From contig JAJEGH010000043.1 in the NCBI GenBank assembly GCA_022819985.1, positions 1-64,000 on the forward strand: DNA of 64,000 bases. Reading direction: 5' to 3'. A model generated the notes under the pieces. The model searched no databases and had not been told where the DNA came from. It saw nothing but the letters and a program-made list of their open reading frames with translations. The position numbers and the translations under genes were made by a program. The DNA is from Alphaproteobacteria bacterium (GTDB taxonomy: Bacteria; Pseudomonadota; Alphaproteobacteria; Bin65). Shown in pieces: positions 4,539 through 60,820 of the stretch (position 1 is its first letter; each line of letters starts with the position of its first letter).

Positions 4539-5438
4539 CTATCCGGCGGGGCGGGCGAGCAGTTTTTCGACGAAGGGCAGGATGCGTTCGACGATCGCGG
4601 CGACGCCGGCGGCGTTCGGGTGGATGAGGTCGGGCTGGTTCAGCGCCGGATCCAGCGCCACGCCGTCGAGGAAGAAGGGATAGAGCACCGCGCCGTAGCG
4701 CTGCGCCAGTTCCGGCCAGGCGCGGTTGAAGGCGCGTTCGTATTCCGGGCCGAGATTGCGCGGCGCCTTCATCCCGGCGAGCAGGACGGGGATGTTGCGC
4801 GTCTTCAGCCGCGCCAGGATGGCCGCGAGATTGGCCCGGGTTTCGGCGGGATCGAGGCCGCGCAGGCCGTCGTTGCCGCCGAGCGCGACGAGGACGAAAT
4901 CCGGCTTCGAGGCCAGGGCCCAGGCGAGCCGGGCCCGCCCGCCGGCCGTCGTGTCGCCGGAGATGCTGCCGTTCAGGACGCGGATGTCGTGGCCGCGCCG
5001 GCGCAGCGCCGCCTCCAGCCGCGGGACGAAGCCGCGTTCCGCCGGCAGGCCGAAACCGGCGCCCAGACTGTCGCCCAGCACCAGCAGCGTGCGGCCGCCC
5101 GCCTCCGCCGGCGACGCGAAGGCGAGGCCGCCCACCAGGGCGAGGGCGCACAGCCAGGGCGCTCCCCGGCAAATTCCCCCCTCCCCTTGGGGGAGGATCG
5201 TTCTGCGAAAAGGGCACTGATAAGATCCCCCTCCCCTTGGGGGAGGGGCAAGGGGAGGGGTCGGCCGCCGCCGCACCGATGTTCGATCCCTGCACCGCGA
5301 CAGGGTTCGCGGACCCTTCCCCCTAACCCCCTCCCCCAAGGGGAGGGGGATTCGGGCGGCGCTTTTTGCGCTTTTCCGCAGAGGAGATCGAAAGGGAAAC
5401 CAACGCTTGATCCGGCGGCGGGCGGCCACATATGCCAT
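4539..5438 (-). CDS. tesA: TesA-type arylesterase / acyl-CoA thioesterase I; start uncertain
   Basis: This is an SGNH/GDSL hydrolase that cleaves acyl-CoA or short esters, normally periplasmic. Block I LLVLGDSLGAGFG gives the nucleophile Ser, ISGD and GGNDGLRG give the oxyanion Gly and Asn, and DLIHPNAAG gives the Asp-His pair. The mature part follows a hydrophobic stretch WLCALALVGGLAFASPAEA, a good signal-peptide core and cleavage site. No start codon with an RBS lies just before it. The nearest in-frame ATG (5438) is separated from the core by about 80 codons encoded by a C-rich palindromic element (LPLGEG, LPQGEG). Either the signal peptide was split by repeat insertion or an alternative start is used. 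The location, divergent from ybbA-ybbP, is the classical one for tesA. Confidence 0.85.
   Translation of the reverse strand: MAYVAARRRIKRWFPFRSPLRKSAKSAARIPLPLGEGVRGKGPRTLSRCRDRTSVRRRPTPPLAPPPRGGGSYQCPFRRTILPQGEGGICRGAPWLCALALVGGLAFASPAEAGGRTLLVLGDSLGAGFGLPAERGFVPRLEAALRRRGHDIRVLNGSISGDTTAGGRARLAWALASKPDFVLVALGGNDGLRGLDPAETRANLAAILARLKTRNIPVLLAGMKAPRNLGPEYERAFNRAWPELAQRYGAVLYPFFLDGVALDPALNQPDLIHPNAAGVAAIVERILPFVEKLLARPAG
5175..5385. repeat. Family A MITE-like element overlapping the tesA 5' end
   Basis: The terminal inverted repeat TCTGCGAAAAG (5202-5212) matches CTTTTCCGCAGA (5371-5382) with one inserted base. Inside lie inverted CCCCTCCCC-TTGGGGGAGGGG palindromes. One further palindrome (5177-5197) lies just outside. 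GATCG occurs at 5196-5200 and 5386-5390, a possible short target duplication. The element is open in the tesA reading frame. Confidence 0.75.
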
Positions 5439-11566: not shown

Positions 11567-15297
<3,731 letters not shown>

Positions 15298-15432
15298 GCT
15301 CCTCCCCTCCCCTTGGGGGAGGGGGTCAGGGGGAGGGGTGAGCGGCGGTCGCGACGGCACTGAAGGCGGCATCGACGTGCTGGAAGACACCCCCTCCACT
15401 TGTCCCTCCCCCAGGGGGAGGGGGATTCGATC
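15298..15432. repeat. Family A palindromes between recF and the DUF559 gene
   Basis: Two C-rich palindromes are visible: CTCCCCTTGGGGGAGGGGG followed by TCAGGGGGAGGGG (15301-15338), and CCTCCCCCAGGGGGAGGGGG near 15405-15424. The first reads as the inverse of the palindrome on the other side of the DUF559 gene (15828-15868). The segment is open in frame and would encode PPLTPPPDPLPQGEGRS. Confidence 0.85.
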
Positions 15433-15822
15433 GGCATCTTCACGAACGCCGGCCGCCTCCAACGCCAGCGTTACTTCTGTGAGCACGCCGTCGGTATTTG
15501 CCAGCACCTCGTTATTCCAGAATCGCAAGACAGAATAACCTTCGTCCCGGAGCCAGCCGTCTCGTCTCGAATCGTATGCTCTCTGCATCTCGCTATGCTG
15601 GCCGCCATCGACTTCCACGACCAGCCTGGCCGCCGCGCAGTAGAAATCGACAATGTAGGGACCGATCGGTTGCTGACGCCGGAAACGCGCGCCCAACTGC
15701 ACTCTGCGCAGCTTCGACCAAAGACGCTTTTCCGCGTCTGTCATCGACCTGCGGAAATCTTGCGCCAAGGCAGTCTTGAAAACGCTTCTTCGCGTCGAAG
15801 AAGGCCGGTCTGCTCGTGTCAT
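15298..15822 (-). CDS. DUF559 endonuclease-like protein, no own stop codon
   Basis: From the ATG at 15822 (MTRADRPSSTRRSVFK) the frame encodes a DUF559 domain of about 125 residues: DAEKRLWSKLRR, FRRQQPIGPYIVDFYC, RLVVEVDGGQH and VLRFWNNEVL. DUF559 proteins share the Vsr/PD-(D/E)xK nuclease fold; the Asp of IVDF and the Glu/Asp of VEVD are the likely metal ligands. No biochemical role is established for this family. The frame then runs without a stop through the palindromic repeat into recF, so the native C-terminus is not visible. The gene is bracketed by inverted family A palindromes and interrupts the usual dnaN-recF contact, which suggests it arrived as a cassette. Confidence 0.75.
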
Positions 15823-15827
15823 AGGCC

Positions 15828-15868
15828 GACCCCTCCCCCTAACCCCCTCCCCCAAGGGGAGGGGGGAC
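15828..15868. repeat. Family A palindrome upstream of the DUF559 gene
   Basis: CCCCTCCCCCTAACCCCC is followed by TCCCCCAAGGGGAGGGGGG. It is the mirror orientation of the palindrome at 15301-15338, so the DUF559 gene sits between inverted copies. It lies between the DUF559 start and the dnaN stop. Confidence 0.85.
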
Positions 15869-15917: not shown

Positions 15918-17036
15918 TCAGACCCGCATCGGCATCAGGACGTAGAGCGACGCTTCGTCCGCCAGATCGCGGATCACCGTCGGCGAGCCGCTGTCCGCCA
16001 GTTCGAACTTCAACTCCTCGCCCTCTATCTGGTTGGCGATGTCGAGCAGGTAGCGGGCATTGAAGCCGATCTCCATGTCCTCGTCGCCGTAGGCGATTTC
16101 CAATTCCTCGGTGGCGCTGCCGGCGTCCGGGCTGGTCGCCTGCAGGGTGAGATTGCCCTGGCCCAGCATCAGTTTGACGGCGCGCGACTTTTCCGTCGAA
16201 ATCGTCGACACCCGGTCGACCGCCTCGCGGAACGGCTTCGTCGCCACGGTCATCGCCTTGTCGTTCTGGTTCGGAATCACCCGCTCGTAGTCCGGGAAGG
16301 TGCCGTCGATCAGTTTCGAGGTCAGTTCGATACTGCCGAAAGAGAAACGGATCTTGTTCTCCGACAGGCCGACCTGCACGGAGGCGTCGGCCTCGGCGAT
16401 CAGGCGGTGCAGTTCGTTGACCGTCTTGCGCGGCACGATCGCGCCCGGCATGCCGGCGGCGCCTTCCGGCAACGGCATTTCCAGCCTCGCCAGCCGATGG
16501 CCGTCGGTTGCCACGGCGCGCAGCAGCTGAACGCCGTTCCCCTCCTTGGCGTGCCAGTAGATGCCGTTGAGGTAGTAGCGGGTTTCCTCGGTCGAGATCG
16601 CAAAGCGGGTGCGGTCGATCACCGTGCGCAGGTCGGCAGCACTCATGGCGAACTCGTGGGGCAGGCCGCCGCCCTCGATCGCCGGGAAATCCTCCCGCGG
16701 CAGGCAACTCAACCGGAAGCTCGACCGGCCGGCGCGCAGCGCCAGGCGGCTGCCGTCCTCCTCGAGCGCCAGCTCGACCTGGGCGCCTTCCGGCAATTTG
16801 CGCACGATGTCGTGCAGCGTGTGGACCGGCGTCGTCGTCGCACCCGGCGTCGCCACATTGGCTTCGGTCGCTTCGACGATCGAAATATCCATGTCGGTGG
16901 TGTTGAGCCGCAATGCCGCGCCGCTCGCTTCGATGAGCACGTTGGACAGGATCGGAATGGCGTTGCGCCGCTCGACCACGCTCTGGACGTGGGCCAGCGA
17001 TCGGAGCAGGGCGGCGCGTTCGATGAGAATTTTCAT
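15918..17036 (-). CDS. dnaN: DNA polymerase III beta sliding clamp
   Basis: The 372-residue clamp tethers polymerase III to DNA. I start it at the ATG at 17036 (MKILIERAALLRSLAHVQSVVERRNAIPILSNVL), the standard beta-clamp N-terminus; the open frame upstream is G+C-driven. Family features include LLRAVATDGHRLA, the ATRYYLNGIYW-like segment (STEETRYYLNGIYWH) and the C-terminal YVLMPMRV, which closes the hydrophobic protein-binding pocket. recF and gyrB lie downstream. dnaA is not adjacent. Confidence 0.97.
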   Translation of the reverse strand: MKILIERAALLRSLAHVQSVVERRNAIPILSNVLIEASGAALRLNTTDMDISIVEATEANVATPGATTTPVHTLHDIVRKLPEGAQVELALEEDGSRLALRAGRSSFRLSCLPREDFPAIEGGGLPHEFAMSAADLRTVIDRTRFAISTEETRYYLNGIYWHAKEGNGVQLLRAVATDGHRLARLEMPLPEGAAGMPGAIVPRKTVNELHRLIAEADASVQVGLSENKIRFSFGSIELTSKLIDGTFPDYERVIPNQNDKAMTVATKPFREAVDRVSTISTEKSRAVKLMLGQGNLTLQATSPDAGSATEELEIAYGDEDMEIGFNARYLLDIANQIEGEELKFELADSGSPTVIRDLADEASLYVLMPMRV

Positions 17037-25837: not shown

Positions 25838-26059
25838 AGGATTCCTCTGCGAAATTCGGACAGAGCGAAAACGGGCGCCGGCGCAGCCTTCCCCGCGATA
25901 CCCCTCCCCCTGCCCCCTCCCCCAAGGGGAGGGGGGTAACGCATTGGAATTGCGCCGGTTTTTCCTGCTTTCGCACGACAGTTCCCACAAGAACATCCCC
26001 GCTCCCCTCCGGGGGAGGGGGCCTCCGGCACAGCCACGCCCCTCTCGCAGAGGAATCCT
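25838..26059. mobile_element. Family A MITE-like element with 15-bp terminal inverted repeats
   Basis: AGGATTCCTCTGCGA (25838-25852) is exactly complementary to TCGCAGAGGAATCCT (26045-26059). The interior has the family A palindromes CCCCCTCCCCCAAGGGGAGGGG (split arms near 25897-25937) and a diverged copy near 26003-26030. It is about 222 bp long with no transposase gene, as expected for a non-autonomous element. It lies 88 bp after aceB. Confidence 0.75.
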
Positions 26060-60626: not shown

Positions 60627-60820
60627 GCTCTGCGAAAAGCCGCAAGTCGGCTCCAACAGACAGGGCAGCGGTCCCCCCTCCCCTTGGGGGAGGGGGTCAG
60701 GGGGAGGGGAATGCGGCGACCGGCGCCTTGCCGGAGGCGGCCTCGGCGCGCTGACGGACGACCCCTCCCCTAGCCCCTCCCCCAAGGGGAGGGGGATTCC
60801 GCCTGTGCTTTTTTGCAGAG
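60627..60820. mobile_element. Family A MITE-like element upstream of purH
   Basis: GCTCTGCGAAAAGC (60627-60640) is inverted against GCTTTTTTGCAGAG (60807-60820) with one change and one added base. The interior holds two family A palindromes in opposite orientation around a 50-bp core. It is about 194 bp long. No gene lies in it; it ends about 130 bp before the purH start. The rest of 60485-60953 shows no other feature. Confidence 0.8.

Follow-up and report, generated by a model that had tools for sequence, protein, structure and literature searches.

The 64,000-nucleotide stretch of DNA analysed here, referred to as the window, is the beginning of contig JAJEGH010000043.1 of an alphaproteobacterial draft genome (GCA_022819985.1). 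Between dnaN and recF it carries a minus-strand frame (P0001, 15301–15822) that belongs to the DUF559 family. The PF04480 profile matches the translated frame with 134 bits (E 2e-39) against a curated cut-off of 20.6, the related MTES_1575 family appears below cut-off, and PF01797 is unmatched. The unit is free-standing, with no intron and no interruption of a target gene. As the initial annotation had described, the gene is boxed by two C-rich palindromes of opposite orientation, whose 36-nt arms (15304–15339 and 15829–15864) are 97% complementary and lie 489 nt apart. Both outer copies are real, and a third, slightly decayed copy at about 15387–15425 had been overlooked. The features of the locus and the other palindromes of the window are collected in Table 1.

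The same annotation held that the DUF559 frame has no stop and runs through the palindrome into recF. This is indeed so; the frame passes in phase into RecF, and the same is found in a related genome, G004. DUF559 and RecF form one open frame in the window genome and in G004 (window 14041–15822; loci L166 and L168) with linkers of different length, and since the open frame is shared despite the unequal linkers, a DUF559–RecF fusion protein is possible. At window 15297–15320 the downstream palindrome has its G-rich arm, GGGGAGGGGAGGAGC, at the Shine-Dalgarno place of recF with a GTG start right after it, and G004 has the same arrangement with an ATG after the palindrome and before recF. The downstream palindrome may set recF translation.

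Table 1. Position and orientation of the genes and family A palindromes in the window.
Feature	Position	Strand	Remarks
DUF559 (PF04480) domain	15445–15822	-	126 aa; predicted EDxHD/Vsr-like nuclease fold; frame open past 15301 into recF
dnaN	15918–17036	-	upstream neighbour of the DUF559 gene
recF	14041–15297 (15297 approximate)	-	downstream of DUF559; translation probably starts with the GTG at 15297 that adjoins the palindrome, the start being a reading of the sequence
Upstream family A triplex palindrome	15829–15865	.	third arm toward the DUF559 gene; CCCCTCCCCCTAACCCCCTCCCCCAAGGGGAGGGGG on the plus strand
Downstream family A triplex palindrome	15304–15339	.	inverted relative to 15829; third arm toward the gene; G-rich arm at the recF Shine-Dalgarno position
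Third family A palindrome	15387–15425 (approximate)	.	some decay in the third arm; makes an inverted pair of 99 bp with 15304
Family A inverted dimer, about 125 bp, without DUF559	5225–5349	.	G004, G005 and G006 have nothing at this site, G001 and G002 a family B dimer
Partial family A palindrome	5175–5195	.	adjoins the 5225 dimer
Single family A palindrome	25899–25935	.	
Family A inverted dimer without DUF559	60674–60797	.	enclosed by a repeat whose ends are of the CTGCGAAAAG / CTTTTTTGCAG type

Triplex palindromes in the window genome and its genus

The family A palindrome at 15829–15865 is composed of three C/G-rich arms, two alike and one complementary, joined by short loops (CCCCTCCCCC-TAA-CCCCCTCCCCC-AA-GGGGAGGGGG). 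These palindromes represent a motif already described, the G/C-rich intrastrand triplex motif called TM, earlier PIT (Hoyne and Maher; Holder, 2015, PMC4666352), for which triplex formation is known from in vitro work by others; the two like arms with their complementary arm and the linkers of a TTA type and a second type are common to both. TM repeats have been described in more than 260 genomes and linked to genome instability in E. coli, where 23 copies include five inverted pairs, each joining the two linker types (Holder, 2015, PMC4666352). The dimers of the window likewise join two linker types, and in its genus they measure about 120–125 bp with a TTA/TCA-linker end joined to a CTAG/CAAG-linker end. 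Nine family A palindromes are found in the window, mostly as inverted pairs 99–100 bp apart. In the whole window genome the pattern CCCTCYCC-N1-10-GGRGAGGG has 37 matches and the reversed control pattern none, thus the palindromes are not a product of chance. Nine copies within 64 kb, set against 37 by the strict pattern in a draft of 4.04 Mb, amount to an excess that reflects either a cluster near dnaN and recF or copies lost at contig breaks. The elements end TCCC...GATTC and no GTAG or CGTC tag was seen on them. A search of Rfam returned no match at the gathering score, and its weak matches (miRNA, Whalefall-1) were set aside as chance matches to G/C-rich sequence.

Several family A dimers occupy the centre of a larger repeat that has inverted ends of about 18 bp, GGATTCCTCTGCGAAAAG ... 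CTTTTCGCAGAGGAATCC, at 60.6–60.9 kb of the window and at L199–L202, L208, L218, L222 and L227. This larger repeat is possibly a separate MITE, and since it encloses dimers between inverted ends of its own, another mobiliser may contribute to their spread. The same termini (GGATTCCTCTGCGAAAAG) would be expected if an unrelated transposase moved a transposon that has the palindromes as its ends and DUF559 as its cargo. We regard this explanation as highly improbable, because other family A dimers have flanks that are unrelated right up to the palindromes, no transposase gene was found within the DUF559 unit at dnaN–recF, PF01797 (Y1_Tnp) has no match in the window genome, and the bracketing of DUF559 genes described below recurs in many phyla with unrelated flanks.

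The window genome (G000) was compared with relatives G001–G009 at orthologous sites. Between dnaN and recF, DUF559 is present in G000, G004 and G005 (the contig of the last ends before recF), a family B dimer with no DUF559 occupies the site in G001, G002 and G003, and G006–G009 possess neither gene nor palindromes. Most of the relatives examined therefore offer the dnaN–recF site without DUF559 for which the initial annotation had advised a search, and the gene is not an inheritance common to all of them. The site at 5.2 kb is likewise variable (Table 1), and from these two patterns it follows that palindrome dimers are gained and lost at shared intergenic positions. A clean target-site duplication was looked for at the dimer insertions and not found, though an empty site is seen in G004–G006. 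At what appears to be one and the same site in G003 and G001 (L223 on contig C67, L226 on C32), a family A dimer stands in opposite orientations in the two species, hinting at independent insertion or inversion. Two types of DUF559 gene, on the other hand, keep to orthologous positions throughout the genus, as would suit a gene that acts in trans. The family A and B counts within the genus do not strictly follow the gene: G003 has 62 family A copies and DUF559 was not found in its 96%-complete draft, while family A is present in 24 copies in G001 and 22 in G002, where the only DUF559 is of family B.

Bracketing and co-occurrence across bacteria

To what extent DUF559 genes gather such palindromes elsewhere was assessed on 80 named loci from many phyla, of which 74 had enough flanking sequence; a gene was counted as bracketed when C-rich hairpins occurred at most 250 bp away on both sides. 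This applied to 50 of the 74 loci, compared with 14 of 10,744 random placements (0.13%) and 2 of 293 other open reading frames in the same loci, and the enrichment beside DUF559 that the initial annotation had anticipated thus extends across phyla. The density of C-rich hairpins is 7.4–8.2 per kb within 100 bp of DUF559 and 0.10–0.13 per kb at distances above 1 kb. In 49 flanking hairpins the third arm points toward the gene, as it does in both outer copies of the window, and in 19 it points away. The 96 related genomes contain about 52 full-length DUF559 genes, of which most have the exact pattern within about 200 bp and the rest mostly have another C-rich palindrome family on both sides. The TM motif is recognisable at DUF559 genes of alpha-, beta-, gamma- and deltaproteobacteria, Chloroflexota (SAR202), Spirochaetes and Nitrospiria, and the same bracketing is found in many phyla where the flanks are unrelated.

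DUF559 occurs in a few plasmid records, several of them of chromosome size. In these, the motif is likewise recognisable beside the gene in Cyanobacteria, Deinococcus, Klebsiella and a gonococcal record filed there, on one side only in the last two; the gonococcal one is a C-rich palindrome of triplex type. Phage records gave three DUF559 matches only, so that this is not a typical phage gene. There is no case for a known defence system either, since PADLOC matched nothing but DpdF, weakly and in part. In a study on Legionella evolution, repeated segments with a transposase and DUF559 are described as hotspots of mutation and recombination (PMC12308824).

The palindromes are also matched to the gene that they enclose. 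Over 122 loci, the left and right palindromes match by 0.62 within a locus and by 0.45 between loci (p 8e-17), and protein similarity correlates with palindrome similarity (Mantel rho 0.27, reached in 0 of 500 permutations). Ten DUF559 matches occur in G022, a genome in one contig of 3.38 Mb; the eight copies examined each have distinct palindromes, with a left-right match of 0.57–1.0 within and 0.44 between copies, and would make a good natural test set for the specificity of nuclease and palindrome. In G004 one DUF559 gene has family A palindromes and another has family B. The same pattern, in which different gene copies have their own repeats, is known for RAYTs and REPINs (PMC3116915).

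Gene and repeats further co-occur at the level of whole genomes. In 385 alphaproteobacterial genomes, at least five TM matches were found in 70 of the 95 with a strong DUF559 match and in 20 of the 290 without (odds ratio 38). The odds ratio is 175 with one genome per family (28/36 vs 2/102) and 187 among those of at least 2.5 Mb, and it ranges over 25–34 in the other classes of the phylum (Pseudomonadota). Exceptions occur on both sides: 12 of 67 genomes of the class with at least 10 TM copies are without DUF559, and nine DUF559 genomes have zero TM by the pattern used. Y1_Tnp genes show no association with TM number (odds ratio about 1, 0.7–1.8), and since they do not predict the repeats, RAYT was rejected as their mobiliser. 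A shared cause, namely that larger G/C-rich genomes simply hold more C-rich hairpins and more DUF559 genes, could be read from the tendency of small genomes to lack both. We find it scarcely credible; bracketing was compared inside the same loci, whereby composition is controlled and this explanation contradicted, the reversed control pattern is rare across genomes, and the association persists in the larger genomes and is absent for Y1_Tnp.

The DUF559 gene of E. coli K-12 is ycjD (L063, NC_000913.3 1351407–1351760). It is bracketed by TM, with a good copy on one side and a decayed copy at its 3′ end, and is present in 3,364 of 5,426 complete E. coli genomes, about 38% being without it. In an evenly spaced sample, the 37 strains that have ycjD show a median of 18 TM places per record and the 23 that lack it a median of 4 (p 8e-10), a difference confounded by phylogroup. 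Strains lacking ycjD carry the eefRABCD operon at the fabI–sapF site (SMS-3-5, L210/L214), which is therefore not a simple empty site. Here ycjD and the eefRABCD efflux operon are alternatives, and their exchange may have involved the TM next to ycjD.

The DUF559 protein and its relatives

The DUF559 gene is under purifying selection, with dN/dS of 0.08–0.30 overall and 0.18–0.30 against G004 and G005, and it encodes a predicted small nuclease of the PD-(D/E)XK/EDxHD type. The structure predicted for the window protein (mean pLDDT 86) was compared by Foldseek, and its best match is ngo0050 of Neisseria gonorrhoeae (PDB 3hrl), a solved structure of the same family whose entry is described as endonuclease-like. 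The homing endonuclease I-Bth0305I follows (3r3p_B, E 1e-4, TM-score 0.80 by target), and the very-short-patch repair endonuclease Vsr (1vsr) is a weaker match (E 0.05, TM-score 0.42–0.45). Profile comparison likewise returned ngo0050/3hrl (E 5e-40) and I-Bth0305I (E 0.002); 17-bit profile matches to pentameric toxin B subunits were taken as chance, no such subunit being among the top 50 matches by fold. Across 37 homologues E31, D59, E70, D72, H76, D84, R87, W102 and N103 are invariant, and among them E31, D59, H76 and D84 are candidates for the E, D, H, D catalytic set of the EDxHD homing endonucleases.

Vsr and DUF559 are both small nucleases of the PD-(D/E)XK superfamily, and YcjD has been placed near Vsr (PMC1189080). 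DUF559 could accordingly be viewed as an ordinary Vsr-like mismatch or repair endonuclease, with the palindromes as terminators, insulators or incidental repeats. Hairpins can terminate transcription, the predicted fold resembles that of Vsr, though less than that of I-Bth0305I, and in a Caulobacter study the DUF559 protein VsrA, needed for the SOS response of a methylase mutant, is read as a Vsr repair enzyme (PMC12907096); this requirement is at the least a hint that members of the family are able to damage DNA in vivo. Vsr biology, however, does not include bracketing by palindromes. Such hairpins are all but missing from neighbouring genes (2/293), the palindrome family varies from copy to copy with the left one matching the right, and the co-occurrence with genome-wide repeat number would be left unexplained. 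We thus think a plain repair role very unlikely.

The main rival is a homing-type selfish gene, for which the palindromes are mere landing sites. DUF559 would cut loci that contain the repeat and be copied into them by recombination between repeat arms, the repeats themselves having been dispersed in some other way. Outside its own family, the closest fold is that of a homing endonuclease, the gene sits inside repeat pairs, and it is polymorphic at dnaN–recF and, in E. coli, at fabI–sapF. I-Bth0305I shares the fold of the catalytic domain, but DUF559 is a free-standing single domain with no NUMOD modules, lies outside any intron or intein, and is bracketed by palindromes. Genomes without DUF559 mostly lack such repeats, which homing does not predict, and the gene moves little, given that its two types hold the same orthologous places within the genus. 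On balance we judge homing unlikely, although it deserves more credit than the other alternatives.

A putative nuclease and palindrome system

No mobility gene had been seen near TM repeats (Holder, 2015, PMC4666352), and DUF559 was missed in that study although ycjD of K-12 is bracketed by TM. We found no paper linking DUF559 to palindromic repeats among extracts of the open-access literature on the family. As DUF559 genes are mostly bracketed on both sides by a scattered palindromic repeat, the enzyme behind the spread or maintenance of TM repeats, long missing, is probably DUF559. The initial annotation had put it forward as a candidate mobilising or maintenance nuclease, a proposal strengthened by the enrichment across phyla, by the polymorphism at dnaN–recF and by the failure of RAYT to explain the repeats; the association with the palindromes is what the data show, and recognition, cutting and copying are what we infer.

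The reading that we prefer, and hold to be probable though well short of certain, is that the DUF559 gene and its palindromes are one two-part system, in which the nuclease acts on its own palindrome family and host repair copies the pairs. The nuclease would recognise its own three-armed C-rich palindromes, both those flanking the gene and the scattered copies, which are mostly inverted pairs, and would cut or nick them when they are extruded or single-stranded. Host repair or recombination would then copy palindrome pairs to new intergenic places and so keep the families alive. The gene itself would remain mostly at fixed places and act in trans, as RAYT does for REPINs.

Such a unit would work like RAYT and REP (Nunvar, 2010; Bertels and Rainey, 2011). 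In both, a low-copy nuclease gene is flanked by a cognate palindrome family that also occurs elsewhere as dispersed inverted pairs, differing gene copies have differing palindromes, and the gene is mostly at fixed sites; the likeness is one of analogy and not of homology. RAYT is a Y1/HUH transposase, whereas DUF559 has a fold of the PD-(D/E)XK/EDxHD type, and the window palindromes have a third arm of triplex type and no GTAG/CGTC tag. Without HUH domain and tag, DUF559 does not belong to the RAYTs, and the simplest reading would be a system that resembles RAYT/REPIN but is assembled from a nuclease and repeats unrelated to theirs.

More tentatively, and with slightly more doubt than confidence, we suggest that DUF559 and TM form a second, independent class of repeat-spreading system in many phyla. 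Here a lone EDxHD/PD-(D/E)XK nuclease without strand-transferase activity would drive the copying of triplex-palindrome pairs by way of host repair, with many subfamilies that each co-evolve with their own palindrome.

The pairing with DUF559 provides a candidate cause for the widespread triplex-type repeats, in a nuclease family that is small, conserved and already crystallised. The question can be put to the test in E. coli K-12, whose single ycjD gene is bracketed by the repeat and absent from more than a third of complete genomes of the species. If the system is as proposed, DUF559 would gain a function, and populations of REP-like repeats would have arisen at least twice with unrelated enzymes.
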